Shown: one piece after another, positions 9,290-23,007 of the stretch
How positions within the stretch are numbered: position 1 is the first letter of the stretch
Layout: each line of letters begins with the position of its first letter
Assembly (NCBI GenBank): GCA_014695295.1
Contig: JACJNY010000063.1
Coordinates: 186,001-250,000 of the forward strand
Direction: 5' to 3'
DNA length: 64,000 nt
Source of the DNA: Microcoleus sp. FACHB-61
Lineage (GTDB): Bacteria; Cyanobacteriota; Cyanobacteriia; Cyanobacteriales; Microcoleaceae
Program-made: the position numbers and the translations under genes
Notes under the pieces: model-generated
Seen by the model: the letters and a program-made list of their open reading frames with translations, nothing else
Told to the model about the DNA's origin: nothing
Database searches by the model: none

Positions 9290-9354
9290 ATTGAGCCGAG
9301 CGCTATTTTTTAAGGTAAATATCTTAAATAATACATTATTTTTTTACTCGTTCC

Positions 9355-9438
9355 CCGGCTCTACCTGGTAACGCATATCCGGAGGCTCGGCCTCCAATTT
9401 TCATGGAATCTCTTCGAGGCAGAGCCTCTGGAAACCAG
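9355..9438. repeat. Dispersed hairpin repeat (GGAGGCTCGGCCTCC family)
   Basis: The palindrome GGAGGCTCGGCCTCC (about 9379-9393) and the hairpin GAGGCAGAGCCTC (about 9415-9427) lie between the kinase and the small gene. The second hairpin also appears at the very end of the window (63984 onward), so this is a dispersed family. Confidence 0.6.
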
Positions 9439-9663
9439 TTAATTTTCATGTTTTAGGAGTTCTGCATATTCGCTCATTCCGAGTTCCGCAAGTTGTCGGT
9501 CTTCTTCGGCAAATTCGCTGTAGAGTGTGGCTAAGTTACTTTCATCTACTGCTAGATTAGTAACTAATCTGGCACGAAATTTCAGAAATGCAATAAATTC
9601 AAATACTTGTTTGAGTTGTTCGAGATCGAGCTTTTCTAACTCTTGTTGGATTAAATGTTTCAT
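9439..9663 (-). CDS. Small antitoxin-like protein
   Basis: A 74-residue acidic protein with the pattern of short cyanobacterial antitoxin-like proteins: an N-terminal helix LEKLDLEQLKQVFEFI, then AFLKFRAR, then a Glu-rich tail (FAEEDRQLAELGMSEYAELL). No toxin gene (PIN, RelE or MazF type) follows it. It sits between the regulator and the kinase of a two-component system on the same strand, so it is probably cotranscribed with them. A role in signalling is possible but nothing in the sequence shows it. Family membership is tentative. Confidence 0.6.
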   Translation of the reverse strand: MKHLIQQELEKLDLEQLKQVFEFIAFLKFRARLVTNLAVDESNLATLYSEFAEEDRQLAELGMSEYAELLKHEN

Positions 9664-9749
9664 GGCAGTTATTTTTTTATTCGAGTTTTCTATATTATAG
9701 CCAGATACTGGAAACGAGATATAATCCCCCCGCCGTTGCCCCTACAGCT

Positions 9750-10439
9750 TTAATTTCTCATGCGGTATCCGACGCCGTGTACAGTTTCAATTAAATTCGC
9801 GCAGCCAACTGATTCGAGTTTGCGCCGCAGCAAGCGCACTTGAGCGGCTACTACATTGCTAAAGGTATCTGCACTTGCTTCCCATATCTGATTCCGAATT
9901 TGGTCGGTGGTGACAATTTGGTTGGGATGTTTCATAAAATATTCTAACAGTTGAAATTCTTTGTTTGTCAGCGAAATTATCTGGTTTTTGCCGTTGCGAT
10001 CGAGATGACAAGCAGTGCGATTTCCGCAGTCGAGAACGAGATTCCCTACTTGTAGCTGTTGTGGCTGAATTTGGGGCGATCGCCTCTGCAATGCCCGCAA
10101 CCTTGCTAACAGTTCCGCCATCCCGAACGGCTTGACTAAATAATCATCAGCCCCGGCATCTAGTCCCGCAACTTTATCTTCCATTCGGTCTTTTGCTGTC
10201 AGCATCAATACGGGCAGTGCGCTATGTTTAGCACGCAATCTCCGCAGCAGTTCCAATCCTGACAATCCTGGTAGCAACCAGTCAAAAATAGCGAGGGTGT
10301 ATTGCGTCCACTGGCTGTCTAAATATTCCCAAGCTTCATTGCCATCTAGGGCCCAATCAACTATATATTTTTCCTGCTTTAAGGTTCGCTCGATCGCTTT
10401 TCCTAAATCTGGCTCGTCTTCAACTAGCAAAACTCTCAT
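9750..10439 (-). CDS. rppA: OmpR-family response regulator, RppA/NrsR/CopR-like
   Basis: Transcription factor of 229 residues: receiver domain (1-118) with acidic pocket E8/D9, phospho-acceptor Asp53 in IFDWLLPG, Thr81 and Lys103, then a winged-helix DNA-binding domain (about 125-227) ending in the family-typical ETVHGVGYRMR. The receiver strongly resembles cyanobacterial RppA (MEDKVAGLDAGADDYLVKPFG). A TTTCAT-N5-TTTCAT direct repeat lies 84 bp upstream of its own start. The same repeat precedes four copper-efflux genes in this window, so autoregulation and control of the copper regulon are likely. Transcription order is regulator, small protein, kinase. Confidence 0.88.
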   Translation of the reverse strand: MRVLLVEDEPDLGKAIERTLKQEKYIVDWALDGNEAWEYLDSQWTQYTLAIFDWLLPGLSGLELLRRLRAKHSALPVLMLTAKDRMEDKVAGLDAGADDYLVKPFGMAELLARLRALQRRSPQIQPQQLQVGNLVLDCGNRTACHLDRNGKNQIISLTNKEFQLLEYFMKHPNQIVTTDQIRNQIWEASADTFSNVVAAQVRLLRRKLESVGCANLIETVHGVGYRMRN

Positions 10440-10522
10440 AAGATTAATTTACAGCGGTCAATCTCTATACATTGTTAGCCGCCGACAGCGCCAACCCCCA
10501 ACATATAAGCTGACACACTTAG

Positions 10523-10540
10523 ATGAAATCAGCATGAAAT
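10523..10540 (-). promoter_or_regulatory. CopR-type direct-repeat operator, site A (regulator)
   Basis: On the minus strand this reads TTTCAT-GCTGA-TTTCAT: two identical hexamers 11 bp apart, one helical turn, as expected for a tandem OmpR/PhoB-type dimer. It is 84 bp upstream of the response regulator start, suggesting autoregulation. Confidence 0.7.
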
Positions 10541-10565
10541 TTTATGACCGAAACTAATTGGATCG

Positions 10566-10653
10566 CAAGCCCTCGGATTCATTCCAACGCGCTGGCTGAC
10601 TGACGGGAATAAATCTAAAATCTAAAATCTAAAATCGATTGACTGCGCAGAAA
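10566..10653. repeat. Dispersed element with AAAATCT heptamers
   Basis: CAAGCCCTCGGATTCATTCC followed by tandem AAAATCT units and TCGATTGAC. The same parts in the same order form the right arm of the large palindromic element at 59651-59949. Confidence 0.6.
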
Positions 10654-10673
10654 AAGATGATAGTTGACAATTA

Positions 10674-10702
10674 TTGACAACAAGCTGGTAATGTCTTATA
10701 AT
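10674..10702 (+). promoter_or_regulatory. Consensus sigma70-type promoter of the multicopper oxidase
   Basis: TTGACA (10674-10679), a 17-bp spacer and TATAAT (10697-10702): both boxes match the consensus exactly. The ATG follows 39 bp downstream. A second TTGACA at 10664-10669 makes a 10-bp direct repeat that a regulator could use. Confidence 0.8.
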
Positions 10703-10741
10703 CAAGCACGAATGAATATTTGATAAAAATTTTCAATAAGT

Positions 10742-11746
10742 ATGACAGATTTATCCGATCGTCCCGCCATCAAAAAGCCGGGGCGCTGGAGTCGCCGCCA
10801 ACTGCTACAGCTAGGAATAGCTGGTGCTGGGGTAGCGGGCAGCGCGATCGCATTGCAAAATTTGACCCAAAAACGATCGGCTGTGGCGAGAGTACCGCCA
10901 ATGCCCGCAGATGCAGTCACCGTCAGCAATATCAACCCGATGCAAATTGCGCGGGATTTTGATTACGGCACGGTGACGCGCGAAAACGGGCGCACGGTAC
11001 GCGAATTTCGCCTGGAAGCTAATACTTCGATCGTCCAACTTAACAGCGCGGTCACTTTCAACACCTGGAACGTCAACAATCGCGTGCCGGGGCCGACATT
11101 AAGGGCAACAGAGGGCGATCGTATCCGCGTCATTTTTTATAACAAAGCCGGAGATTCTCATTCGCTGCACTTTCACGGCGTTCATACCAGCGAAATGGAT
11201 GGCGTTAAACCAGTGAAACACGGTTCGGTATTTATTTATGAATTCGATGCCAATCCCTACGGAGTGCATCTATATCACTGCCATATTGAGCCCGTAACTC
11301 GCCATATAGGTAAAGGACTCTATGGAATGTTCATCATCGATCCGCCAAAACCCCGCCCTCCCGCCGATGAAATATTGTTAATCATGGGAGGATACGACGT
11401 AAACGACGACAAAAAAAACGAGCTTTACGCTTTTAACGGGTTGCCCAATTATTACATGAACAACCCGATACCTATTTACCGAAATCAGCTAATCCGGCTG
11501 TACGTTCTCAACCTAATTGAGTACGAAGCGGCAGTAACCTTCCACCTGCACGCCAACTTTTTTGACGTATATCGCACGGGAATGACTTTGACTCCCAGTG
11601 AAAGAACCGATGTAATTACAATGGGAGTAGCTGAAAGACATATCTTAGAATTTACCTACGGCTACGCCGGAAAATTTATGTTTCATCCCCATCAAGATGC
11701 GATCGCCGAAGCAGGCTGCATGGGGGTATTTGAAGTCATCACTTAA
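10742..11746 (+). CDS. Two-domain multicopper oxidase, Tat-exported
   Basis: Periplasmic copper oxidase, 334 residues. The N terminus carries a twin-arginine signal (SRRQLL at 17-22, then a hydrophobic stretch). Copper-ligand motifs: HSLHFHGVH and YHCHIEPVTRH in domain 1, VTFHLHANFF and FMFHPHQDAIAEAGCMG in domain 2. The Cys-containing HCH motif is in domain 1 while domain 2 has HPH, so the type 1 copper site should be in domain 1. It is short for a three-domain laccase and fits the two-domain class. Two genes downstream, in the same direction, are a lipoprotein and an Ftr1 permease, which suggests a ferroxidase role as in Fet3/Ftr1 iron uptake. Cuprous oxidase activity is the alternative. 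Confidence 0.87.
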   Translation: MTDLSDRPAIKKPGRWSRRQLLQLGIAGAGVAGSAIALQNLTQKRSAVARVPPMPADAVTVSNINPMQIARDFDYGTVTRENGRTVREFRLEANTSIVQLNSAVTFNTWNVNNRVPGPTLRATEGDRIRVIFYNKAGDSHSLHFHGVHTSEMDGVKPVKHGSVFIYEFDANPYGVHLYHCHIEPVTRHIGKGLYGMFIIDPPKPRPPADEILLIMGGYDVNDDKKNELYAFNGLPNYYMNNPIPIYRNQLIRLYVLNLIEYEAAVTFHLHANFFDVYRTGMTLTPSERTDVITMGVAERHILEFTYGYAGKFMFHPHQDAIAEAGCMGVFEVIT

Positions 11747-11906
11747 ACCACATCCTGCTACCACGGTGCGCCGATTCAAAGAAAGTATGAAATTATTTGA
11801 CAAGCTCGATCGCAAATAGGTAGAATGAATAGCTCGCAAATAATTGAGAATCTTTCTTAATAACTTGTGAGTCCAAATGCACATAACGTAAAAATTAGCA
11901 ACAGCC

Positions 11907-12938
11907 ATGTTACCATCCTTTCGCTTATTACCGACCGCCACGGCTACAGCCATCTTTGTTGCTCTGGCCGGTTGCGCTTCCACCCCCACAGCCACCAACA
12001 CCGACAGCACAGTCTCACCCGCTGCTACAGCCAGTCCCGCATCCACAAGCGGTCACAGCGGGAATCACGGTGGCAAAGGCGCCATAAACATCAATACTGC
12101 CATTCTTTCAGAGTTAGATAAACTCGAAGCCAAGTTAGGAGTACCGGCACTTTCTAACAAAATTCAAGCCAGCCGCCCTTACGGAAAAGTCGAAGAATTG
12201 GTTTCTAAAAAAGTCATTACTCAAGCCCAATTCGACCAAATCAAAGACTTGGTAACTATTGAAAATGTGGTGCTGACAGGCGAGCCCAAAGATGTAGATT
12301 ACATGACTAAACTTGGCTTGATGAAAGGGCATCTTATCGTAGCCAAAGAACTCTTGGATCAAGGCAAACCCGACCAAGCCGAACCGCACATCGGGCATCC
12401 AGTCGAAGAAATTTATGCCGATGTGGAAGATCAGCTAAACGAGCGTAAAATTCCCGAATTTAAGACTACTTTAATTAAATTGCAGGATTTAGTTAAAGCG
12501 GGTGCAAAAGATCCGGCTCAAGTGAATGCAGAATTTGACACATCAATGCAAGCAGTTGACGGAGCAATTGCCGCCCTTCCCGAAGCGCAGCGAAAAGATC
12601 CGAAGTTCGTGCTGCAAGTGATTAACGGCTTGCTAGATACAGCTAATTCCGAATACGGAGCGGCGGTTGCTAACGGCAAAATTTCCGCAATTATTGAATA
12701 CCAAGATTCGCGGGGTTTTGTCATGTACGCGGAAAACCTGTACAAAGATATCGCCGATCAAGTGGCTAAAACCAGCCCGGAAATTGACAAAGCAATTGTT
12801 GCCAACATGAATGAACTTAAGGCAAATTGGCCAACTGCGATCGCACCCCCCGCCCCCGTAAAAACAACCGAACAAGTCAACCAGCTAGTTAAAACGATCG
12901 AAAGCGACAGCCAAAAAGTTCTCAAACCCGCCTCTTAA
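11907..12938 (+). CDS. Lipoprotein with ComEA-like helix-hairpin-helix domain, iron-uptake associated
   Basis: Probable lipoprotein of 343 residues. A signal peptide ends in lipobox LAGC (Cys23), followed by a Thr/Ala/Ser-rich linker and a short His/Gly patch (GHSGNHGG). Residues about 60-115 form a ComEA-like helix-hairpin-helix unit (ININTAILSELDKLEAKLGV...YGKVEEL). The rest is helical with the motif GHLIVAKELLDQGKPDQAEPHIGHP, whose His and acidic residues could bind metal (inference). It lies between the multicopper oxidase and Ftr1 on the same strand, so it is probably the periplasmic partner passing iron from oxidase to permease. DNA uptake is unlikely from context. Confidence 0.75.
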   Translation: MLPSFRLLPTATATAIFVALAGCASTPTATNTDSTVSPAATASPASTSGHSGNHGGKGAININTAILSELDKLEAKLGVPALSNKIQASRPYGKVEELVSKKVITQAQFDQIKDLVTIENVVLTGEPKDVDYMTKLGLMKGHLIVAKELLDQGKPDQAEPHIGHPVEEIYADVEDQLNERKIPEFKTTLIKLQDLVKAGAKDPAQVNAEFDTSMQAVDGAIAALPEAQRKDPKFVLQVINGLLDTANSEYGAAVANGKISAIIEYQDSRGFVMYAENLYKDIADQVAKTSPEIDKAIVANMNELKANWPTAIAPPAPVKTTEQVNQLVKTIESDSQKVLKPAS

Positions 12939-13025
12939 AAGCATTACTCTCATTAACAGCGGTAATTGGTAAATAATCTGCCAATTACCTCGCTCCTTAA
13001 CCAGTCCCATTCCCACCATAAAAAA

Positions 13026-13970
13026 ATGAATTTTGGCGAAGCATTGCCCACCTTTGTAATTACTCTCCGCGAAGGAGTCGAAGCCGCCTTAGTTGTCGGA
13101 ATCGTTCTCGCTTGCCTCAAAAAATCAGGACAAAGTTATTTAAGTCCTTGGGTTTTCGGCGGTGTTGGCGTTGGACTTATTGCCAGCGCTTTGATAGGTG
13201 TACTGTTCGGCTGGACTATTCAAATTTTGTCCGCATCCAATCAGCCGTTTGCACCGATTATGGAATCGGTGCTAGAGGCAACCTTTGGGGTGATAGCAAT
13301 AGCAATGCTGAGCTGGATGCTGATTTGGATGACCAAGCAAGCGCGATTTATGAAAGCCGAAGTCGAAGGCGCTGTGAGTGCTGCCTTAACGCAAAACTCT
13401 CATGCCGGTTGGGGCGTATTTAGTTTAGTTTTTATTGCCGTTTTGCGCGAAGGGTTTGAAACTGTTTTGTTTGTCGTCGCCAAGTTTCAACAAGGCATTA
13501 TTCCAGCCCTCGGCGCTTTGGCGGGCATTCTCTCAGCCACCGGACTTGGTGTCCTGCTGTTTAAATGGGGAGTCAAAATTAATATCCGCCTGTTTTTTAA
13601 ATATATGGGCATTTTATTGCTCTTTATTGTAGCGGGTTTAGTGGTATCTACTTTGGGACTTTTTGACAGCGCGGTGAATATTTTATCGCAAGCAAATCGC
13701 GAGTCAGCAGGGCTGTGTTTCTATTACGAAAGATTTACTAAAATCCACTCTTGCATTCTCGGGCCACTGGTCTGGAATAACTCGAAACTGCTTCCAGAAG
13801 ACAAGTTTCCCGGTTTGCTGTTGAGTGCGTTGTTTGGCTACACGGATAAGCTCTATGTCGTGCAGGCCCTGGCTTATTTCGTATTTTTAATCACCGTCGG
13901 CGGCATCTACTTTCAAAGTTTGGCCGGTCGAGTGTTTTTCCCGTTCAAAAAAACTCAGGTAACGAAATAG
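13026..13970 (+). CDS. FTR1-family high-affinity iron permease
   Basis: Inner-membrane iron permease, 314 residues, about seven hydrophobic helices. Both diagnostic REGxE motifs are present: REGVE at 15-19 in the first helix and REGFE at 141-145 in the fourth, the iron-binding pair of Ftr1. A TTG-initiated extension of 20 codons is possible, but the ATG at 13026 puts LREGVEAALVVG at the family-typical position, so it is preferred. It is the third gene after the multicopper oxidase and HhH lipoprotein, a prokaryotic counterpart of Fet3/Ftr1: ferrous iron oxidised by the oxidase would be taken up through this permease. A hairpin terminator follows. Confidence 0.92.
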   Translation: MNFGEALPTFVITLREGVEAALVVGIVLACLKKSGQSYLSPWVFGGVGVGLIASALIGVLFGWTIQILSASNQPFAPIMESVLEATFGVIAIAMLSWMLIWMTKQARFMKAEVEGAVSAALTQNSHAGWGVFSLVFIAVLREGFETVLFVVAKFQQGIIPALGALAGILSATGLGVLLFKWGVKINIRLFFKYMGILLLFIVAGLVVSTLGLFDSAVNILSQANRESAGLCFYYERFTKIHSCILGPLVWNNSKLLPEDKFPGLLLSALFGYTDKLYVVQALAYFVFLITVGGIYFQSLAGRVFFPFKKTQVTK

Positions 13971-13981
13971 GGAATTAAGTG

Positions 13982-14005
13982 CGATCGAAATACGATCGGC
14001 TTTTT
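13982..14005 (+). terminator. Rho-independent terminator after ftr1
   Basis: Stem CGATCG / CGATCG (13982-13987 and 13993-13998) with a 5-nt loop, followed by GC and a run of five T, just downstream of the iron permease stop. Confidence 0.6.
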
Positions 14006-14043
14006 AGTGGAAATGCAGGAGGCAGTTGTTTGTTGCTAATAAT

Positions 14044-14071
14044 TAATGCGCCCATAAGTTAGAGCGCATTA
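14044..14071 (-). terminator. Hairpin downstream of the YtkA-like lipoprotein
   Basis: Perfect 8-bp inverted repeat TAATGCGC / GCGCATTA with a 12-nt loop, 14 bp beyond the stop of the minus-strand lipoprotein gene. It probably ends the cusA-lipoprotein transcript. Confidence 0.5.
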
Positions 14072-14084
14072 GGAAATCAGCTAT

Positions 14085-14564
14085 TTATTGACTGAAGGTA
14101 AAACGACCGTCAACTTTTTCGCCGTTGATATCCGCAGTCACTTTCACTGGATACTGACCGGGTTCTTTGCCGGGAAACACCACAGCGTAATGTTTGCCCT
14201 CAGCATCATACTTGAGAGCTAGGGTTTGCTGCTTTCCATTCGGCAACTGCACTTGAGCCGTCACTTTCGCGTTAGGAACAGGTTCCTTTTTATCCCCTTT
14301 TTGCAAATACAAATCTAAATGAGTTCCGGTAGCTTCTTTTTCAGTTACAAACTCTAAATGGTAAGCTCCAGACTCCACAACTTGCCCCCCTTGAGTTGCT
14401 TTTGCAGAAGCAGCGGCGGGAGCCGAAGACGCAGGTTGAGAGGCAACAGGAGAGGAGGCTGGACTGCTATTTGTATCGCTTGCTTGGTCGCCTTTACTGC
14501 AAGCTCCCAAAAACAGCAATCCAACACTACCTAGAACAATTAAATTTGACTTAAGCGATTTCAT
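14085..14564 (-). CDS. Small envelope lipoprotein linked to RND metal efflux
   Basis: Predicted lipoprotein, 159 residues: signal peptide with lipobox FLGAC (Cys22), a Ser/Ala/Pro-rich tether (about 30-60) and a C-terminal beta-rich domain (about 65-157: HLEFVTEK... KVTADINGEKVDGRFTF). The domain looks like the YtkA/FixH-type immunoglobulin-like fold found near copper proteins; that assignment is by pattern only. The gene starts 39 bp after the cusA-like stop on the same strand, so the two are likely cotranscribed. It probably acts in the periplasm with the pump, perhaps as a metal chaperone analogous to CusF, though no CusF signature is seen. Confidence 0.7.
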   Translation of the reverse strand: MKSLKSNLIVLGSVGLLFLGACSKGDQASDTNSSPASSPVASQPASSAPAAASAKATQGGQVVESGAYHLEFVTEKEATGTHLDLYLQKGDKKEPVPNAKVTAQVQLPNGKQQTLALKYDAEGKHYAVVFPGKEPGQYPVKVTADINGEKVDGRFTFSQ

Positions 14565-14603
14565 TTGTTTGACTCCTTGCTGACTGACAATAATTGGAAA
14601 ATA

Positions 14604-17600
14604 TCACACATTAACTACCTTTCCGTCTTCAATAACTGGCTGAAGTTGTTGAGGTCGTAAAAAATGCCCAAATTGAGCATACAAAGCTGGCAAAACTAAC
14701 AGAGTTAAGGCTGTAGAAGTAAATAACCCTCCTAAAACTACGACTGACAGCGGTTGCAAAATTTCCTTGCCCGCCCCACCTTCAAAGACTAAAGGTGCTA
14801 AACCCAAAGCTGAAGTTAAAGCGGTCATTAGGATGGCGTTGAGCCGTTCCATGGAGCCTTTAACAATAGCTTCCTTAAAAGCCATTCCCTCGGCAAATTT
14901 AGTGTTGTAGTTGTCTACTAAAAGCAAGCCGTTGCGGGTGGCAACGCCAAATAAAGTGACAAAGCCAACTAAAGAAGCTACAGAGATGATGCCGCCCGTC
15001 AAAGCTACCGCAATTACTCCTCCCACTAATCCGATCGGCAAATTAATCATAATCATAGCAGTTGAAGCGATAGACTTCACGGACAAGTACATCAATACTG
15101 TAATTACCAAAAAGGCGATCGCGCTAAATATCATAATATTTTGCGAAGCTCTTTGTTCTGCTTCAAATTGACCGCCGTACTGGATAAAATAGCCAAAAGG
15201 CAACTGCACCTCTCGTTTGACTTTAGCTTGAATTTCATTCACAACCGATCGCAAATCCCTACCTTTAGCATTAGCCGCTGCCACAATCAAGCGAGAAACA
15301 TTCTCGCGGTTAATAGTATTGGGCCCCGTACCGTATTTAACAGTCGCAACTTGGGCGAGGGGAATCTTGTTGCCGCTTGGAGTATCAACCAACAAATTCT
15401 GAATAGTTTCTAGGTTTTTTCGGGCTTCAGGCTGCAACCAAACAACTAAGTCAAAAGTTTGTTGCACTTCCAAAACTTGAGAAACAACTTTCCCGTTTAA
15501 AGCTGTCTCAATTATTTCAGAAAGCTCTCCGATTTTCAAACCGTATCTACCCGCAGCTTGGCGGTCAAACTTAATTTGAATTTGTTGCACTGGCACCTGC
15601 GGTTCGAGCTGCAAATCCACAATTCCCTCAACTGTTTTCATTTGCTCTTCAACTTTTGCACCGATGCTGCGAAGCTGATCCAAATCCGGCCCAAAGATTT
15701 TGACAGCAATCTGACTTCTGACACCAGATAAAACCTCATCCATCCGGTGAGAAATAAAACCGCCGATATTTGGTGCAACTCCCGGCAATTTAGCAAATTC
15801 CTGCCGCAGCGACTCCAAAGTTTTCGGTCTGTTTTTCATCCCTACCTCGCTCAAACCGATATCAATGTGAGCTAAATTGACTCCCGCAGCATCAGCATCT
15901 CCCGGAGCTCTGCCCGATCGCACTTGCACGTATTCAAACCTGGTATCATCCTTAAGTGCATCTTCAATAGCAAAAGCCGCGCTATCTGTTGTCTCCAAAG
16001 ACACCCCCGGATAAAGCATAATAGTATTCACCAAAGTTTGCTCCTGAAACTCCGGCAAAAACACCCGTCCAAAGGAAGGCAAAATAATTAATGCAGCCAC
16101 CATGCTAGCAGCAGCTAAAGCTAAAATAATCCCCGAATAGCGCATTGACAGTTGTATAAAAAAATGATAGACTTTCTTGCAAAATCTCGGCAGCCAAGGT
16201 TCCGCAGCACTCATACGTTTGGTAGGCAACAAGAGAGCGCAAAGGGCCGGAGATATTAACAGCGACTCCAGACTAGAAATCACAACAACTACCAGATAAG
16301 TAATTCCCATAGGCGTAAAAATTCGACCTTCTACACCGGGCAAAGTAAAAATTGGCGAAAACACCACAATCCCAATAACAGTCGCTCCAATTAACGAATC
16401 GCGCACCTCCTGACTGCCATCAAAAATCACATCCATTACCGGGCGCGGATGCAGAGAAGACGTATTTTCTCTCAAATTGCGGTAGGTATTTTCGGCATAA
16501 ACGATCGCATCGTCGATCGCAGTGCCGATCGCCACCGACAAACCCCCCAAAGTCATCGTATTCAGCCCCAGCCCCAGCCAATACATCGCCAGCAGCGCCA
16601 ACAGCCAAGTCAAAAAGAAATCTAGCAAAACAACCGCCAGAGTGCGCCAATTCATCAAAAACGGGATGAGAATAAGGGTGACGATAATACTGCCTTCAAC
16701 TAAAGCCGATCGCACATTCTCCACCGAGGAATTAATATATTCTTCCTGTCGAAAAGTCACAGTAACTTTAATATCTTTTGGCAGAGCTTCCTGCACCTCA
16801 GCCATTGCTGCCTCAACCGCTTTCGTTACTGTCGGAGTATCAGCAACTGGCTGTCTGTTTACCATCACAATCACAGCTTTTTTGCCGTTAAAGCTGCCGT
16901 CGCCCCGCTTGATAGCAGCACCAACCTTGACATCAGCGACATCACCAATTCTGACGACTGTTCCTTGCCGAGATGCGATCGCAGATTGCTGCAAATCTTC
17001 CACAGACTCAATCCGCCCCACCCCCCGGATTAAAGTTTCTCGATCCGGCGTAATTAAATACCCCCCCGGCGCGTTAACATTCGCAGCCGCCGCCGCTTCG
17101 GCAACTTGCTGCAACGACACATTAAAAGCTTTCAACTTTGCAGGTTCTACTAATACTTGATACTGCCTTTCTTCGCCGCCGTAAGCCACGACTTGAGCAA
17201 CCCCAGTCACTGCCAAAAGCCGATTTGTGACTTGCCAGTCAACCAGACGGCGCACTTCCATCAAAGGAGTAGTTTCTGATGTAAAAGCATAGGTAATAAC
17301 AGTACCGACAGGTGAAGTCGTGGGAGAAATTTGCGGTGTTTCTACTCCGGCGGGGAGTTTGCTTTGCGCTTGCTGCAACCGTTCTGTTATCAACTGCCGC
17401 GCTTGATAAATTTCAGTTCCCCAATCAAAGATTACCTTAACCGCAGAAAGGCCCACAGCCGAAGACGATCGCACTGCTGTCACCCCAGGAGTTCCATTAA
17501 TTGCACTTTCAATTGGCAGTGTTACTAAAGACTCGATTTCTTCCGGCGCGAGCCCTGGTGCTTCGGTTTGAATTTCGACTTGCGGGGGTGCAAAAGGAGG

Positions 17601-17717
17601 GAAGACATCAAGCGACATTTGGGGGATGATAGAAAATGTCCACAGACTAACAATAATGGTGGCGACAACGACTAGCCAGCGACGGTTAATTACCCATCTG
17701 AGAATTGTGCTGAACAT
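14604..17717 (-). CDS. CusA/CzcA-family heavy-metal RND efflux permease
   Basis: Inner-membrane pump, 1037 residues, driven by the proton gradient. It has the full RND architecture: TM1 near the N terminus, a large periplasmic domain, a central TM2-6 block containing GGLSVAIGTAIDDAIVYAEN (the acidic residues of the proton relay), a second periplasmic loop, and TM8-12 near the end (LVGFVTLFGVATRNGLLLVDNYN). HME-type sequence features (SLDVFPPFAPPQVEIQTEAPGLAPEEIE) place it with Cus/Czc pumps rather than drug pumps. A TTTCAT-N5-TTTCAT repeat lies 87 bp upstream. The adaptor gene, usually adjacent, is separated by an unrelated three-gene operon. No outer-membrane CusC-type gene is in the window. 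Copper is the likeliest substrate from context. Confidence 0.93.
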   Translation of the reverse strand: MFSTILRWVINRRWLVVVATIIVSLWTFSIIPQMSLDVFPPFAPPQVEIQTEAPGLAPEEIESLVTLPIESAINGTPGVTAVRSSSAVGLSAVKVIFDWGTEIYQARQLITERLQQAQSKLPAGVETPQISPTTSPVGTVITYAFTSETTPLMEVRRLVDWQVTNRLLAVTGVAQVVAYGGEERQYQVLVEPAKLKAFNVSLQQVAEAAAAANVNAPGGYLITPDRETLIRGVGRIESVEDLQQSAIASRQGTVVRIGDVADVKVGAAIKRGDGSFNGKKAVIVMVNRQPVADTPTVTKAVEAAMAEVQEALPKDIKVTVTFRQEEYINSSVENVRSALVEGSIIVTLILIPFLMNWRTLAVVLLDFFLTWLLALLAMYWLGLGLNTMTLGGLSVAIGTAIDDAIVYAENTYRNLRENTSSLHPRPVMDVIFDGSQEVRDSLIGATVIGIVVFSPIFTLPGVEGRIFTPMGITYLVVVVISSLESLLISPALCALLLPTKRMSAAEPWLPRFCKKVYHFFIQLSMRYSGIILALAAASMVAALIILPSFGRVFLPEFQEQTLVNTIMLYPGVSLETTDSAAFAIEDALKDDTRFEYVQVRSGRAPGDADAAGVNLAHIDIGLSEVGMKNRPKTLESLRQEFAKLPGVAPNIGGFISHRMDEVLSGVRSQIAVKIFGPDLDQLRSIGAKVEEQMKTVEGIVDLQLEPQVPVQQIQIKFDRQAAGRYGLKIGELSEIIETALNGKVVSQVLEVQQTFDLVVWLQPEARKNLETIQNLLVDTPSGNKIPLAQVATVKYGTGPNTINRENVSRLIVAAANAKGRDLRSVVNEIQAKVKREVQLPFGYFIQYGGQFEAEQRASQNIMIFSAIAFLVITVLMYLSVKSIASTAMIMINLPIGLVGGVIAVALTGGIISVASLVGFVTLFGVATRNGLLLVDNYNTKFAEGMAFKEAIVKGSMERLNAILMTALTSALGLAPLVFEGGAGKEILQPLSVVVLGGLFTSTALTLLVLPALYAQFGHFLRPQQLQPVIEDGKVVNV

Positions 17718-17803
17718 TTTATGATTTTATAGAGGTAATGACTACCAGCCACCGTTGGGCGATCGACGTTAAATAGCTATTCAATTTACGTTGACACCCA
17801 AAA

Positions 17804-17821
17804 ATGAAATTAGGATGAAAT
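17804..17821 (-). promoter_or_regulatory. CopR-type direct-repeat operator, site B (cusA)
   Basis: On the minus strand: TTTCAT-CCTAA-TTTCAT, 87 bp upstream of the RND permease start. Same spacing and orientation relative to the gene as the other four sites. Confidence 0.72.
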
Positions 17822-17923
17822 CTTTTAACTTCCAACCTTGATTAATAAGTCATCTAAAATTTCAAATCTCAAATGATATAACCTGTCTTGCTATTTTTGA
17901 CAATGCAGCTTACAATAGTTATT

Positions 17924-18661
17924 ATGCAAGCACCAAAACACTACTCGCACGCCCCAATCACCGAAGCCTTGATTGATATACAAGTTAAACTTCCACCCGA
18001 AGTTAAACTTGACAATTTGGCGCAGGTGTACTCCAGCATTCAGGCTGAGTATCCTCAGCGTGAAGAGGTGTTACTTTTTCAGGGACAAATGATGGCAGGT
18101 GCTAGTGTTGGGGCAACAGCCAGCCAATCTCCAATTGGCTATATAGCCTCCCGCGGCGACCAAAAACAAATTCTTCAACTGCGTTTAGATGCTTTCGCAT
18201 TCAGTCGGCTTGCCCCTTACGACTGTTGGGAAAATTTTCGGGATGAAGCAAAGCGACTGTGGAATATCTATCAGTCGGTGACACATCCAGAAGCAATAGT
18301 TCGTTTAGCACTCAGGTATATTAACAGGCTAGATATTCCTTTACCGATTGGCGATCTCAAAGAGTATTTGAGGACATTTCCGGAAGTTTCCCCTGACTTG
18401 CCACAAGGATTAAGTGGCTACTTTATGCAGCTACAAATTCCGCAAGAAAACTTGGGAACAATGCTGGTTATTAATCAAGCAATAGTTCCACCTCCCACCC
18501 CTGATTTTGTTTCTATAATATTGGATTTAGACCTCTTTTTGGAAGGGTATATTCCTCATGAGGAAATAGGGCTTTGGCACATTTTAGAACAAATGCACGA
18601 ACAAAAAAACATAGCTTTTGAAGCTTGCATTACAGAACGCATAAGGGAGTCGATTAACTGA
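17924..18661 (+). CDS. TIGR04255-family protein
   Basis: A 245-residue protein of the sporadically distributed TIGR04255 family, recognised by the N-terminal signature SHAPITEALIDIQVKLP and the later LALRYINRLDIP. Function unknown; no catalytic motif is apparent. The ATG at 17924 is chosen because the signature begins soon after; upstream TTG/ATG codons would add up to 12 residues. It is the first of three overlapping genes (stop overlaps the next start as TGATG), so the three proteins are probably made together. The operon runs against, and lies between, the cusA-like and cusB-like genes, which suggests later insertion. TIGR04255 genes are patchily distributed among bacteria, compatible with a defence or stress role (inference). 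Confidence 0.8.
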   Translation: MQAPKHYSHAPITEALIDIQVKLPPEVKLDNLAQVYSSIQAEYPQREEVLLFQGQMMAGASVGATASQSPIGYIASRGDQKQILQLRLDAFAFSRLAPYDCWENFRDEAKRLWNIYQSVTHPEAIVRLALRYINRLDIPLPIGDLKEYLRTFPEVSPDLPQGLSGYFMQLQIPQENLGTMLVINQAIVPPPTPDFVSIILDLDLFLEGYIPHEEIGLWHILEQMHEQKNIAFEACITERIRESIN

Positions 18662-18954
18662 TGGCTACAATTACCCCCCTACGTCCTAAGGGCGTTTCAC
18701 CATCACCAAAATTGCTGGTGTTAGAGCCAAAAGCCACAGCTCAATTACAAAGTCCTGAAGGCCGAAAACTTGCAGCACTAGCTGATGAAGTGTTGCGGAA
18801 TTTAACAGTTGTCAAACAATACTTACAAACTCTAGAAAGCATTGGCGAAATAGACTGGCAGCCAGTACCGCCAAAGCGTTCGGAACGAGTAATCATGCGC
18901 GCTCAGTTCAAAGGGCGTAAAAAACCTCTGCCCTATATTTTCGATGAAGAATGA
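18661..18954 (+). CDS. Small uncharacterised protein of the TIGR04255 operon
   Basis: A 97-residue protein of unknown function. The N terminus is Pro/Lys-rich and disordered in appearance (TPLRPKGVSPSPKLLVLEPK), the centre is one helical stretch (GRKLAALADEVLRNLTVVKQYL), and the C terminus is basic then acidic (FKGRKKPLPYIFDEE). The start overlaps the previous stop (TGATG) and its stop overlaps the next start (ATGA), so translation is coupled to both neighbours. Such a small middle gene could be a bridging or regulatory subunit; that is inference only. Confidence 0.7.
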   Translation: MATITPLRPKGVSPSPKLLVLEPKATAQLQSPEGRKLAALADEVLRNLTVVKQYLQTLESIGEIDWQPVPPKRSERVIMRAQFKGRKKPLPYIFDEE

Positions 18955-19487
18955 TCGTAGAGCCTTTCTGGGTGCAGGTAAATGAATCCACTCTCAGGCA
19001 AGGTGATTACCTACCTGGGTGTCTGGTACCAATACCAGTATTTGACCCAACAAGTTTTGGCAAAAATAGTGAAATTCAAGACGTACAAATAGAAATTAAT
19101 GAAGTAGATTTAATTATTCTCACCCAAAGCTGCGATTTGGATAATAAAAAAGTAGCTCAGGTAGTGCTGTGTGCAATTTACCATATTTCAGAATTTGAGG
19201 AAAATAACGAAGCATTTAAGAAAAAAGGAAAATGGAATGAAGTTTTAAGAGGGAGAACAGAAGGTTTGCACCTGCTGGCATCACCAACGAACCCAGATAA
19301 TAACAAAGAAGCACTGGTTGTAAATTTTAGAGATATCCAAACCTTGCCTTACGAATATGTGTTGAAAGACGCTAGTAATTTAAACGAACGCTGGCGATTA
19401 AAATCTCCTTATTTAGAACACTTTTCTCAGGCATTTGCACGTTTATTTATGCGAGTTGGTTTACCATCGGCTATTCCGCCTTTTTAA
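18951..19487 (+). CDS. Uncharacterised LTQSCDL protein of the TIGR04255 operon
   Basis: A 178-residue protein of unknown function. Recognisable blocks: LRQGDYLPGCLVP near the N terminus, VDLIILTQSCDLDNKKV in the middle (a Cys-Asp pair), GRTEGLHLL, and a C-terminal RWRLKSPYLEHFSQAFARL with FMRVGLP. The blocks look like a defined family with conserved polar residues, but no enzyme motif I can name. It overlaps the previous gene by 4 bp (ATGA) and ends 42 bp from the convergent cusB-like gene. Its position as the last of a tightly coupled operon suggests work with the TIGR04255 protein. Confidence 0.72.
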   Translation: MIVEPFWVQVNESTLRQGDYLPGCLVPIPVFDPTSFGKNSEIQDVQIEINEVDLIILTQSCDLDNKKVAQVVLCAIYHISEFEENNEAFKKKGKWNEVLRGRTEGLHLLASPTNPDNNKEALVVNFRDIQTLPYEYVLKDASNLNERWRLKSPYLEHFSQAFARLFMRVGLPSAIPPF

Positions 19488-19529
19488 GTCATTTTATGTA
19501 GGTTATAATTGCTAGATTAAACAAAATTT

Positions 19530-21476
19530 TTAGTTCAAGCTCTTGGCTTCTGTCTCCTGACTTTTAACGCGGTGGTGGTCATCATGGGGCGGCAATTCAT
19601 CTAATGTAATCGCGTTTAATGTCGGTGCAGAGACAGAAAAATTATTGTTTCCAGAATCCGCTGCTATTGCTGGCAATTTGCGCCGATTTCCCCACAACAC
19701 GCCGGCTGTGAAAGTCAGGGATGCGATCGCAACTCCTCCCCCTATTCCCGCCCACCATAAAGACACGGGTAAATTATTAAAATTAACCTCTGTTAGCTTG
19801 GGAGAAGTCTCTTTCTTTTCCTCGTCTTTTGAGGGCTTGCTGCCGCCCCGCAAAGATTGTGCGTAAAGTTGAGGTGCTCGCTGCGTTACTATCAAATCTC
19901 CCTCGAATAAACCCCTCTTCACTTCAACTAAATCTCCGGCAGTTTGACCGAGTTCAATTTCAACAGCTTGATAAGCATTGCCATTTTGGATGTAAACAGT
20001 TTTTTGACCGCTAACATCCACTACCGCCGCAGTCGGAATTGCTAAAATATTTGTTGCAGTTTTGTCTGTTAAAATCTCCAACTCCGCAAACAGTCCGGGC
20101 TTTAATTCGCCGTTAATATTATCTAGTTCTGCTTTCACCGGCACAACCCGCGTTTCTCCTTCCACGGATGACCCCATTAAGGCGATTTTTCCCTTGAAAG
20201 TGCGATCGGGTAAATTAGCGACTTTTACCCTGACTTCCTGACCCTGTTTTACTTGATTCAGGTCTTTTTCGTAAATATTGGCTGTGGCAAAAACGCGGCT
20301 GTCATTTAACAGACTCATCAACGGTTTTTCAGCGTTTACTGACTCTCCTGGAGTGATTTCGCGATCGGCTACCGTCCCGGAAATCGGAGCAACTACGGTA
20401 ACGAGTCCTCGATCGTTGGCAGCAGTTCCTAATTGTTGGAGCCGCGCTTGATAGGCTGCGTCAGCCAAGCGAATGCGCGACTGAGCGACTTCGACGGCAG
20501 TTTTGCCGCGTTTGACTTGGTTCTCGGCTTCTAGGACTTCCCGGCGGCTCAGAGCTCTGGTAAGTTGAGCTTTTGCTTCTGCTACTCTGCCTTGAGATTC
20601 CCGCAATTCCCGCATTGGGAGGTCTACTTCGGCTTGTTTAATTTCGGTTTGGGCTTTGATAACTTCAGGACGGCTTTTTGCCTTAGCAACAGCGGCTTGT
20701 GCTTCGGCGAAGTGGGCTTGCGATTCCAGCATTGTGCGCCGCGCGATCGCTCCTGCAGCCACCAATTCTCGATCGCGATCGAACTGTTCTTTAGCCACAG
20801 TCAGTTCTGTTTCGGCTCTGGCGATCTCAGCTTGCGATATTTCAATCTGACGCTGATAATTTTCTTTAGCAACTTTGACAACAGAGCGCTTATTTACTAA
20901 TTCTTGCTCTTTTTCGTACTGTTGGGTAGTTGCTGCTAATTGAGTTCGCGCCTGTGCTATTTCAGCTTCAGCTATTTTCACCAGGCGATCGTAATTTTCT
21001 CGTGCTAGTTCTAGATCCCCTTCTGCTTGCTGCAAATCCGCCTCAGCTTCGGCCTGTTTCGAGAGAGATTCAACCCGCAATTGTCCTAATTCTGAACTCG
21101 ATAAAACAGCAAGGGCTTGACCTTTTGATACTTTGTCCCCAGGCTTAACCAGCAACTCTACTACTTTCCCAGTAACAGGAGCCGTAACTTCTACTTTTTC
21201 GTTGGGTAAAGTTTCAATTTGTCCTGTGGTTTTGATGCCGATCTCTAGTCGCTGGCGAGCGGCAGGAGAGACTTTAATTCCTAATCGTTTTGCTGTTTCG
21301 GCATCGACAGAAATAGCAGCAGGAGTTTGAGGTGTTTCGCCGCTTTGGTGAAATTCATCTCCGTGTCCCGCGTGGGCAAAAACGGGGGTGGACTCGATGA
21401 ATAACAAAAGACTCAGGAGTATTCCCGAAAAGTGAACTATTGGTGCTGGGGAGCGGACACGGCGGTAGTATTGCAT
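19530..21476 (-). CDS. CusB/HlyD-family RND efflux periplasmic adaptor
   Basis: Membrane-fusion protein of a heavy-metal RND pump, 648 residues. After a signal-like N terminus and a His-containing segment (HAGHGDEFHQSG) come a lipoyl half (VTAPVTGKVVELLVKPGDKV), a very long Glu/Ala/Arg coiled coil (about 140-345), the second lipoyl half (VTVVAPISGTVADREITPGESV), beta-barrel and membrane-proximal domains. Unusually, there is a C-terminal hydrophobic helix (about 575-597) and a His-rich tail (PPHDDHHR). Family adaptors are usually 350-520 residues, so the hairpin and tail account for the extra length. It should link the CusA-like permease to an outer-membrane channel encoded elsewhere. A CopR-type repeat lies 50 bp upstream of the start. 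Confidence 0.9.
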   Translation of the reverse strand: MQYYRRVRSPAPIVHFSGILLSLLLFIESTPVFAHAGHGDEFHQSGETPQTPAAISVDAETAKRLGIKVSPAARQRLEIGIKTTGQIETLPNEKVEVTAPVTGKVVELLVKPGDKVSKGQALAVLSSSELGQLRVESLSKQAEAEADLQQAEGDLELARENYDRLVKIAEAEIAQARTQLAATTQQYEKEQELVNKRSVVKVAKENYQRQIEISQAEIARAETELTVAKEQFDRDRELVAAGAIARRTMLESQAHFAEAQAAVAKAKSRPEVIKAQTEIKQAEVDLPMRELRESQGRVAEAKAQLTRALSRREVLEAENQVKRGKTAVEVAQSRIRLADAAYQARLQQLGTAANDRGLVTVVAPISGTVADREITPGESVNAEKPLMSLLNDSRVFATANIYEKDLNQVKQGQEVRVKVANLPDRTFKGKIALMGSSVEGETRVVPVKAELDNINGELKPGLFAELEILTDKTATNILAIPTAAVVDVSGQKTVYIQNGNAYQAVEIELGQTAGDLVEVKRGLFEGDLIVTQRAPQLYAQSLRGGSKPSKDEEKKETSPKLTEVNFNNLPVSLWWAGIGGGVAIASLTFTAGVLWGNRRKLPAIAADSGNNNFSVSAPTLNAITLDELPPHDDHHRVKSQETEAKSLN

Positions 21477-21525
21477 GATTGAGTAGGAGCGAATCTGAAC
21501 TCACATATCAGTTTTGCAGATAAAA

Positions 21526-21543
21526 ATGAAATCCGGATGAAAT
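21526..21543 (-). promoter_or_regulatory. CopR-type direct-repeat operator, site C (cusB)
   Basis: On the minus strand: TTTCAT-CCGGA-TTTCAT, 50 bp upstream of the adaptor start. The hexamers are perfect; only the spacer differs. Confidence 0.72.
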
Positions 21544-21549
21544 ATGGTA

Positions 21550-22278
21550 TTACTGTTTGTACCAAGCTTGCCGCCACTGTTTCATTTGCTCGATTTCTTG
21601 CTTTTGCGAAGTCAGAATTTCTTGAGCTAATTTCTTCATTTCCGGTCGTTTCGACTTCTTCAAAGCATCTTCAGCCATCACTAAAGCTCCTTCGTGGTGG
21701 GGAATCATCGCATTGATAAATCGCAAGTCAAATTGGTCGTCAGCCGCTCCTAAATCCATGCTCATCATCATGCTTTGCATTTGTTCGGGAGTCATGGCCA
21801 TCATGTGACCCATTTGAGCGTGATAAGCCATTGGCGTACTGCTGGCTTTGGCATACCAAGCTTTTCGCCACTCTTTCATTTGATTGATTTCGCGGTTCTG
21901 AGCAGCAATTATATCAGTGGCAAGTTTTTTCATTTCCGGGCGTTTGGATTGTTTAAGCACATCTTGAGCCATGTTTACAGCACCTTGATGGTGTACTGTC
22001 ATGCCATCAATAAATCGCAAATCGTAGTCGGCATCAGCAGGGCCTAAATCCATTGACATATTGTGATTCATGCCATGATTCATGCCATGATTCATGCCAC
22101 CCATGCCGCCTTGTGCCGCGTCTTGCTTGTTGTTTGCTTCGGTTGCAGCCGTAACATTTGGGGCTTGAGTTTCGCTGGAAGGGGCTTTTGAACAAGCAGC
22201 TAGCACTCCGCCGGTTAAAGCGGCTGTGGCGGTCAATATCAGCGCTGCAAAGCCTGTTTTTAATGAAATTGGTTTCAT
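21550..22278 (-). CDS. copM: CopM-like copper-binding lipoprotein with two DUF305 domains
   Basis: Periplasmic copper-binding protein, 242 residues from the chosen start. The lipobox-type signal (GGVLAACSK) fits only if translation begins at the ATG at 22278; an upstream extension would put the operator inside the gene. Two DUF305 repeats follow, each with a DLRFI.. M..HH.GA..MA signature: FIDGMTVHHQGAVNMA and FINAMIPHHEGALVMA. A Met/His-rich linker before them (GGMNHGMNHGMNHNMSMD) and another between them (MMAMTPEQMQSMMMSMD) are typical copper-binding stretches. From memory, CopM of Synechocystis has the same two-domain plan and belongs to the CopRS regulon. A TTTCAT-N5-TTTCAT site lies 51 bp upstream. 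Confidence 0.88.
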   Translation of the reverse strand: MKPISLKTGFAALILTATAALTGGVLAACSKAPSSETQAPNVTAATEANNKQDAAQGGMGGMNHGMNHGMNHNMSMDLGPADADYDLRFIDGMTVHHQGAVNMAQDVLKQSKRPEMKKLATDIIAAQNREINQMKEWRKAWYAKASSTPMAYHAQMGHMMAMTPEQMQSMMMSMDLGAADDQFDLRFINAMIPHHEGALVMAEDALKKSKRPEMKKLAQEILTSQKQEIEQMKQWRQAWYKQ

Positions 22279-22328
22279 CGATTTTATATCCTTAAAACTG
22301 CCATTTATCTTCAGCTTTCCACATAGAA

Positions 22329-22346
22329 ATGAAATTAGGATGAAAT
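22329..22346 (-). promoter_or_regulatory. CopR-type direct-repeat operator, site D (copM)
   Basis: On the minus strand: TTTCAT-CCTAA-TTTCAT, identical to the cusA site and 51 bp upstream of the chosen copM start. Confidence 0.73.
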
Positions 22347-22516
22347 TTTTGAGTGGGAATTGTAAAGAATTATTGCTGTGCCGTCGATCGAACTCAAATT
22401 TAAGATTTACAGGACTCACAACCTAATTATGTAGGGTACACAGTGCGCGCCTTACCCCTATGGGTAGCGTGTCAAACCACTTTTTTCAGAATTCCTGATT
22501 TATTTCACAATTCCCC

Positions 22517-22548
22517 TTGACTCTCCTGTGAACTGGAGACTTTACAAT
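22517..22548 (+). promoter_or_regulatory. MerR-family (CueR-like) promoter of copZ
   Basis: TTGACT (22517-22522) and TACAAT (22543-22548) are separated by 20 bp, longer than the usual 17. The spacer holds an imperfect dyad, CTCTCC...GGAGAC. Long spacer plus dyad is the hallmark of promoters activated by MerR-family metal regulators. The -10 box overlaps an upstream ATG, so translation must begin further down, at 22598. Confidence 0.7.
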
Positions 22549-22597
22549 GGAGTTAATTCATTTATTGAGCAGAGTAGTTTCTGCTGAGGTTCAAACT

Positions 22598-22792
22598 ATG
22601 ACTTTACAGCTAAAAGTTCCCAAGATGGCTTGTTCTGCTTGTGCGAATACAATAACAAATGCAGTCCAAGCAATTGACTCAGCCGCTGCTGTTGAGGCGG
22701 ATACCAAGACAAAATTGGTCACGATTCAAACCGCTAAGTCGGAAAGTGAAGTTAGGAAAGCGATCGCATCTGCTGGCTACCCAGTCGATTAA
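22598..22792 (+). CDS. CopZ-like copper chaperone (HMA domain)
   Basis: A single heavy-metal-associated domain of 64 residues with the copper-binding MxCxxC loop (MACSAC) and the ferredoxin-like pattern ending SAGYPVD. It should carry Cu(I) in the cytosol and deliver it to the CopA-type ATPase encoded 215 bp downstream on the same strand. The start at 22598 is chosen because GAGG precedes it by 8 nt and an in-frame ATG 17 codons upstream lies inside the promoter -10 box. Cyanobacterial Atx1-type chaperones have the same size and role. Confidence 0.9.
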   Translation: MTLQLKVPKMACSACANTITNAVQAIDSAAAVEADTKTKLVTIQTAKSESEVRKAIASAGYPVD

Positions 22793-22835
22793 TGTTAAGG
22801 TCAACGCCAGCGGTTTATAACTTTAGGAATACAGC

Positions 22836-22853
22836 AATTTCATCCTAATTTCA
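22836..22853 (+). promoter_or_regulatory. CopR-type direct-repeat operator, site E (copA)
   Basis: On the plus strand: an ATTTCAT-CCTAA-TTTCA repeat (hexamers TTTCAT at 22838-22843 and 22849-22854), about 155 bp upstream of the copper ATPase. Orientation relative to the gene is the same as at the four minus-strand sites. Confidence 0.7.
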
Positions 22854-23007
22854 TCTTAGGGTGAAATGCTGAACCTTACAACCGCAGCGTCCAGCAACTG
22901 CACGACTCATCTCGATCGCAATTCTCCTCTGTAATTGGGCAACTCGGTTATGCCAATTACTAAATACCTTGGCAACCTGCGCTCTTATTTAGTTTAGGAG
23001 TACCCCT

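Follow-up and report, generated by a model that had tools for sequence, protein, structure and literature searches.

The analysed window, a 64,000-nt stretch of Microcoleus sp. FACHB-61 (contig JACJNY010000063.1, positions 186,001 to 250,000), carries a cluster of copper-handling genes around a two-component system, CopR and CopS. Five of its genes are preceded by the direct repeat TTTCAT-N5-TTTCAT: the regulator gene copR, the resistance-nodulation-division (RND) efflux genes cusA and cusB, copM, and the P-type ATPase gene copA. The genes at the center of the analysis are as follows (window coordinates).

7958–9289, minus strand: copS (rppB-type), sensor histidine kinase; NF041735, 712.9 bits (cut-off 400); HisKA and HATPase_c domains
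9750–10439, minus strand: copR (rppA-type), OmpR-family response regulator; NF041734, 413.2 bits (cut-off 250)
14604–17717, minus strand: cusA, CusA-type HME-RND pump (copA in the Synechocystis copBAC naming); TIGR00914, 771.7 bits (cut-off 701)
19530–21476, minus strand: cusB, CusB-type RND adaptor; TIGR01730, 160.5 bits (cut-off 94.9)
21550–22278, minus strand: copM, DUF305 copper-binding protein; NF049983 CopM, 133.9 bits (cut-off 90); DUF305 domain
22547–22792, plus strand: small HMA-domain (CopZ-like) gene; PF00403
23008–25263, plus strand: copA, copper-translocating P-type ATPase with one HMA domain; TIGR01511, 653.8 bits (cut-off 397); HMA and E1-E2 ATPase domains

Repeat boxes and promoter architecture

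A pattern scan of the window returned five exact matches to the 17-base repeat, against a chance expectation of 0.01 per window, and none of 100 dinucleotide shuffles reached five. Each box lies upstream of its own gene and on the same strand, 83 (copR), 86 (cusA), 49 (cusB), 50 (copM) and 153 bp (copA) from the start codon in the open reading frame (ORF) list, with the copM distance measured to the internal ATG at 22278, not the GTG at 22419. When two mismatches were tolerated, the window held 19 matches vs. 14.5 expected. The first-pass annotation of this DNA had described five exact repeats, 50–160 bp upstream of their genes and all in the same relative orientation. Sequence, number and orientation are confirmed and the distances come to 49–153 bp, with small corrections to the boundaries: four of the repeats had been drawn with one base too many, and the copA repeat had been started two bases early.

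At all five sites, a TG lies exactly seven bases after the second TTTCAT and is followed by a −10 hexamer with A at position 2 and T at position 6, giving the full promoter pattern TTTCAT-N5-TTTCAT-N7-TG-N2-A-N3-T. This pattern is that of a predicted extended −10 promoter in which the direct repeat occupies the place of the −35 element. The first-pass annotation had overlooked the extended −10; the putative operator is part of a fixed promoter. The boxes (all exact pattern matches) and putative CopR promoters are:

copR, minus strand: box 10523–10539; promoter 10507–10539; TG 10515–10514, −10 hexamer 10512–10507
cusA, minus strand: box 17804–17820; promoter 17788–17820; −10 hexamer 17793–17788
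cusB, minus strand: box 21526–21542; promoter 21510–21542; −10 hexamer 21515–21510
copM, minus strand: box 22329–22345; promoter 22313–22345; −10 hexamer 22318–22313
copA, plus strand: box 22838–22854; promoter 22838–22870; −10 hexamer 22865–22870, inside the 215-bp gap between the HMA gene and copA

The architecture was also found in a sample of eight stretches from seven cyanobacterial plasmids, chosen by CopR or CopM homology. Together with the window they contain 46 exact core sites, 37 of which have TG at offset +24, compared with at most 10 sites for any other TG offset between 17 and 41. All but one of these 37 (36) also have the A and T of the −10, and with the window left out the full −10 is present in 31 of 41 core sites. 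The consensus of the 37 TG sites is A-TTTCAT-CYTRA-TTTCAT-TTT-N4-TG-N-C-A-N3-T.

Specificity in the genome

The bare core has 11 exact matches in the 6.6-Mb genome, five in the window and six elsewhere (C41:57021, C41:88921, C41:88932, C60:251388, C60:287172 and C65:145252), and none of these six has the full −10. The C60:287172 and C65:145252 cores lie within open frames of 522 and 273 codons, respectively, and the remaining four are not inside any long open frame. The full promoter pattern, by comparison, is matched perfectly at just five places in the genome, all of them in the copper cluster. The first-pass annotation had held that its proposal would fall if the motif turned up at many unrelated loci. 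With 11 exact matches, the core alone would have made that test look partly failed; once the −10 is included, the perfect matches are confined to this cluster. The genome scan at one mismatch that it had suggested gave 69 core matches vs. 60 for the reversed pattern, and one-mismatch copies were rejected as further targets, being mostly background. The sole one-mismatch match to the full pattern (C73:76340) was taken as chance; an open frame of 514 codons, response-regulator/kinase-like by eye, covers it. At C41:88916–88948, three TTTCAT copies stand in 11-bp register, without a −10 and away from the copper cluster, and no open frame longer than 86 codons covers them.

CopR and the Synechocystis regulon

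The regulator gene adjoins the sensor-kinase gene, and both products score over their NCBIfam cut-offs. CopR of the window is 95% identical to a plasmid protein of Oscillatoria nigro-viridis PCC 7112 and 66% identical to its counterpart on Synechocystis pSYSX. The segment SNVVAAQxRLxRRKL, which we take to be the DNA-recognition helix, is identical at 13 of 15 positions in all nine aligned regulators, paralogs included, and SNVVAAQVRLLRRKL is identical between the window and pSYSX regulators. The gap between copR and copS is 460 bp (9290–9749) and is similar in the relative G303; the pSYSX counterparts overlap. Another relative, G294, has boxes at copM, cusB, cusA and copR. Its contig C5 agrees with the plasmid pOSC7112.01 in box coordinates, so that G294 seems to be PCC 7112; it would then hold a chromosomal CopR cluster and a second one on a plasmid of conjugative type (NC_019763.1).

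On pSYSX, exact boxes precede copM by 50 bp and copB by 101 bp (annotated starts), both with the extended −10. According to PMC4284471 and PMC13421787, Synechocystis CopR binds and activates the promoters of the copM and copB operons. In PMC4890671 the copM promoter of Synechocystis is described as a 72-nt segment with “two direct repeats”, for which Giner-Lamia et al. 2012 is cited, and transcription is placed as starting 26 nt upstream of the start codon. The distance from the predicted −10 on pSYSX to this published copM start site would be 8 nt, assuming the annotated start codon and a published copM copy like that of pSYSX. The exact motif strings appeared in no paper in our literature search, whose scope excluded the full text of Giner-Lamia et al. 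2012, which reportedly describes both the repeats and the Synechocystis CopRS regulon (copMRS, copBAC).

The system of the window resembles CopRS of Synechocystis PCC 6803 in regulator family, in the box and extended −10 before copM and copB, and in the kinds of target (copM, RND pump, regulator). It differs in organization: Synechocystis has two operons, copM-copR-copS and copB-copA-copC, whereas copR, copM, cusB and cusA each have their own box here. We consider CopR a better name than RppA for this predicted regulator, because the NCBIfam name RppA covers several regulators and Synechocystis RppA/NrsR (sll0797), which shares that name, has a different motif. PMC13421787 gives sll0797 the motif AAMAWCTCYYWCCCC, which differs from the window boxes by eye, as well as nickel and pigment targets.

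Distribution across cyanobacteria

In 292 genomes of the phylum, the full pattern has 105 matches in 53 genomes, vs. a single match for the reversed pattern. Each of the 105 sites was inspected in its context and classed by the genes near the box. A gene from the listed classes lies within 470 bp at 87 sites, and at 73 of these it is copM (25), cusB (24, one call with identity below 30%), cusA (7), a CopR/RppA-type regulator (7), a multicopper oxidase (7) or a copper P-ATPase (3, including that of the window). The remainder are an SbnA-like pyridoxal phosphate (PLP) enzyme (8), DUF2808 (2), a copC-position gene (2), a Csp-like protein (1) and a cupredoxin (1). Two of the weak multicopper oxidases were scanned, and both have multicopper-oxidase domains.

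A full-pattern match at one mismatch or fewer is present in 28 of the 29 genus genomes; in one member, G195, the sole match carries a mismatch and CopR is absent at the cut-off. Among the 292 genomes, box and CopR (E ≤ 1e-60) occur together in 46, the box alone in 7, CopR alone in 21 and neither in 218 (Fisher p 1e-29, uncorrected for kinship).

Two putative promoters at copA

The −35 and −10 elements of MerR-type promoters are separated by a 19–20 bp spacer holding a dyad, and such an arrangement precedes the small HMA gene upstream of copA:

22517–22548, plus strand: MerR-type promoter of the HMA gene by pattern, TTGACT, 20-base spacer with dyad, TACAAT

The sequence TTGACT-N20-TACAAT has a single match in the genome at up to three mismatches, and the promoter is kept in 24 of 28 genus copA loci when its −10 pattern is loosened by eye. 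Because it overlaps the first ATG, the true start of the HMA gene is probably the ATG at 22598. A similar MerR-type sequence was seen by eye on the PCC 7112 plasmid, upstream of two HMA genes and a MerR-family gene. Two MerR-family homologs, 50% and 41% identical to a plasmid relative, are encoded on other contigs of the Microcoleus genome; the former scores under the cut-offs of CueR, ZntR, MerR and CadR.

A CopR-type box between the HMA gene and copA is found in 7 of 24 full orthologs in the genus. Five of the seven are exact, and in G311 and G312 the second half-site reads TTTCAC. In G303 and G099, whose CopA proteins are 97% identical to that of the window, the box is absent and the HMA–copA gap is 36 bp. 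A single clade of box holders, as a recent single gain would produce, was rejected on a copA tree (p-AU, from the approximately unbiased test, 6e-52), the group having been named after the distribution was seen. The tree has 26 rows; one of two G299 copies (the second) and the incomplete genes of G292 and G296 were left out. On it the box label requires at least four changes, a count as low as which was reached in 5 of 500 shuffles, so the label is clustered. The promoter segments group as the genes do (G203/G304/G305 and G311/G312/G313, with the window apart). Because the holders are not one clade and their segments group like the genes, the copA box looks like an older promoter that has been repeatedly lost rather than a recent gain; exchange between strains may instead account for the patchy distribution. 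The earlier statement that the regulator “has gained copA as a target” is right only in part; the occurrence of the box in 7 of 24 orthologs outside a single clade fits an older gain followed by repeated loss. Beyond the genus, a box precedes an HMA–copA pair in G123 and a copper-type P-ATPase gene on a Gloeocapsa plasmid.

Cluster layout and neighboring genes

Two further features belong to the RND region:

14085–14564, minus strand: small protein in the copC position downstream of cusA; ORF with no Pfam family
17888–19487, plus strand: three-gene module (TIGR04255 family protein, 148 bits, cut-off 30, and two unknowns) between cusB and cusA

No box lies between cusB and cusA in any of 15 loci with a gap of 338 bp or less, and one lies there in all eight loci with a gap of 534 bp or more; L203 (G308) is a ninth by eye. 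These loci were nearly all selected for holding boxes, and L204 and L209 were not counted because the cusA start is absent (in L209, a box stands behind cusB at the contig end). The layout rule, on the predicted units, is one box per transcription unit. Box and −10 of cusA are identical in the window and in G294, which has the same three inserted genes, and in several relatives a CopR box is found directly upstream of the copC-position gene. The three-gene module occupies the same place in G294, G305 and G306, and a remnant of its second gene is present in three other loci. A known defence function was rejected for the module, which has no PADLOC or Pfam match.

Divergent from copR, at 10742–13970, is an iron-uptake-like set encoding a multicopper oxidase, an HHH-motif protein and an FTR1/EfeU-like permease; it has no CopR box of its own and adjoins copR in many related loci. 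DUF2808 genes lie beside copR on several plasmids (L031, L032, L034, L036, L037 and L038). Many plasmid DUF2808 genes have a CopR box, and in the genus AG often replaces TG, as judged by eye.

The SbnA-like enzyme, which has a box at 8 of the 105 phylum sites, was noted at L036:12044–14514 and at L115, L127, L129, L130, L131, L138, L140 and L141. SbnA functions in 2,3-diaminopropionate synthesis. The single PLP enzyme scanned, that of L036, has SbnA as its best NCBIfam match, at 291.8 bits, below the cut-off of 350. A protein of 435–449 aa follows the SbnA-like enzyme on three plasmids; two of the three pass ANKH (PF07260), and the third has no Pfam match. All eight loci hold a relative of this membrane protein, 58–68% identical to the L031 or L036 protein. 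The pair could possibly be a copper-induced chelator synthase and its exporter.

Discussion

The five sites are very probably CopR-dependent promoters of one autoregulated CopRS copper regulon. Sequence, position, uniqueness, conservation and co-occurrence with CopR are directly established. The boxes at copM and copB of pSYSX, the shared helix segment and the 46 of 292 genomes with both box and CopR support the autoregulated copper regulon that the first-pass annotation had proposed; its account is supported for putative CopR operators and autoregulation and only partly for copA. An autoregulated CopRS regulon is already known; the variant in this genome is the wiring of copA, a lineage-variable extra target.

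Several observations weigh against this reading. Among the 105 phylum sites, 18 could be given no class, and several of these lie at the end of a contig or in a small genome. Of the seven multicopper-oxidase assignments, six depend on identities of 26–27%, and the rarer classes were learned from window and plasmid genes, many of them box-adjacent, which makes them partly circular. Of the 67 genomes with CopR, 21 have no perfect promoter match. CopR is absent at the cut-off from seven genomes with the box, including three small ones whose match looks like chance. Two other regulators of the genome (C24 and C58) exceed the RppA-family cut-off, for which reason CopR is assigned as the cognate regulator by linkage, and three RppA-type paralogs encoded on Oscillatoria, Gloeocapsa and Anabaena plasmids retain the helix segment, so that the helix alone leaves room for cross-talk. 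At copA, 17 of the 24 genus orthologs have no box, and in Synechocystis ctaA, pacS and atx1 are outside CopRS control according to PMC4182526. The exclusion of P-type ATPase genes and Atx1 from that regulon does not extend to the window, where a perfect box and −10 stand upstream of copA; this is a difference in the extent of the regulon, not in its defining feature.

Among other explanations, the one that survives best concerns copA, whose box could be a non-functional relic, with copA expressed solely from the MerR-type promoter of the HMA gene. The many orthologs without a box, including the two nearest with their 36-bp gap, the altered half-site of G311 and G312, and the retention of the MerR-type promoter in most genus loci would all suit a relic. 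The window box is nonetheless perfect in half-sites, spacing and −10, and holder segments that differ by 5–18% keep the full pattern perfect in five of seven cases, and we judge the relic reading unlikely. We consider it less probable still that the boxes are operators of another RppA-type regulator of this genome, with CopR merely a target. With three family members over the cut-off and a helix segment shared by paralogs, related regulators could read the same box; however, the five boxes fall in a 12.4-kb region around copRS, box and CopR occur together across genomes and are both missing from G195 (as perfect box and at the cut-off, respectively), the Synechocystis promoters reported as CopR-bound have the box, and the sll0797 motif in PMC13421787 differs from it. 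Chance repeats in AT-rich intergenic DNA are a negligible prospect despite the six other exact cores in the genome (two inside long open frames), since 0.01 would be expected in the window and the full promoter is perfect nowhere else in the genome and precedes the same genes in related genomes.

For CopR-dependent transcription, we infer a route of binding, activation, copper signaling and dual control. CopS would detect surplus copper at the outer face of the membrane and phosphorylate CopR, two molecules of which would occupy the two TTTCAT half-sites, spaced 11 bp, as a head-to-tail pair. Bound CopR would stand in for the −35 and bring RNA polymerase to the extended −10, with its TG 7 bases further downstream, in a PhoB-like manner, as at pho boxes. 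PhoB, an activator of the OmpR/PhoB family, acts at promoters in which an 11-bp direct repeat takes the −35 position, roughly 10 bp before the −10. The window boxes share this layout of repeat and −10, with a different half-site and signal and with an extended TG. CopR would thereby activate its own gene (positive autoregulation), copM for copper binding outside the cytoplasm, cusB, as well as cusA and the small gene behind it, for RND efflux, and copA for the P-type ATPase. From the MerR-type promoter before the HMA gene, copA could also be transcribed under cytosolic-sensor control, placing it under the dual control of a cytosolic sensor and CopRS. Enterobacteria divide these tasks, using the MerR-type CueR for the cytosolic pump gene copA and the two-component CusRS for the RND pump cusCFBA. 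The window is similar in combining a MerR-type promoter with two-component control, and adds a box directly before copA.

We give about even odds to a broader joint reading. On this reading, copA of the genus would be wired to both a cytosolic MerR-type switch and the envelope switch CopRS, and its internal promoter would be old and repeatedly lost, so that close relatives differ in whether the cytosolic pump responds to envelope copper. The CopR promoter would also mark a phylum-wide regulon larger than that of Synechocystis, including multicopper oxidases, a Csp-like protein and the SbnA-like pair, which might make and export a copper-binding small molecule. CopRS has been worked out mainly in Synechocystis, and the promoter signature, with its 105 matches vs. 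one for the reversed pattern, makes likely CopR targets recognizable from sequence throughout the cyanobacteria. Close relatives with and without the copA box offer a natural set for testing the value of coupling the pump to the envelope sensor.

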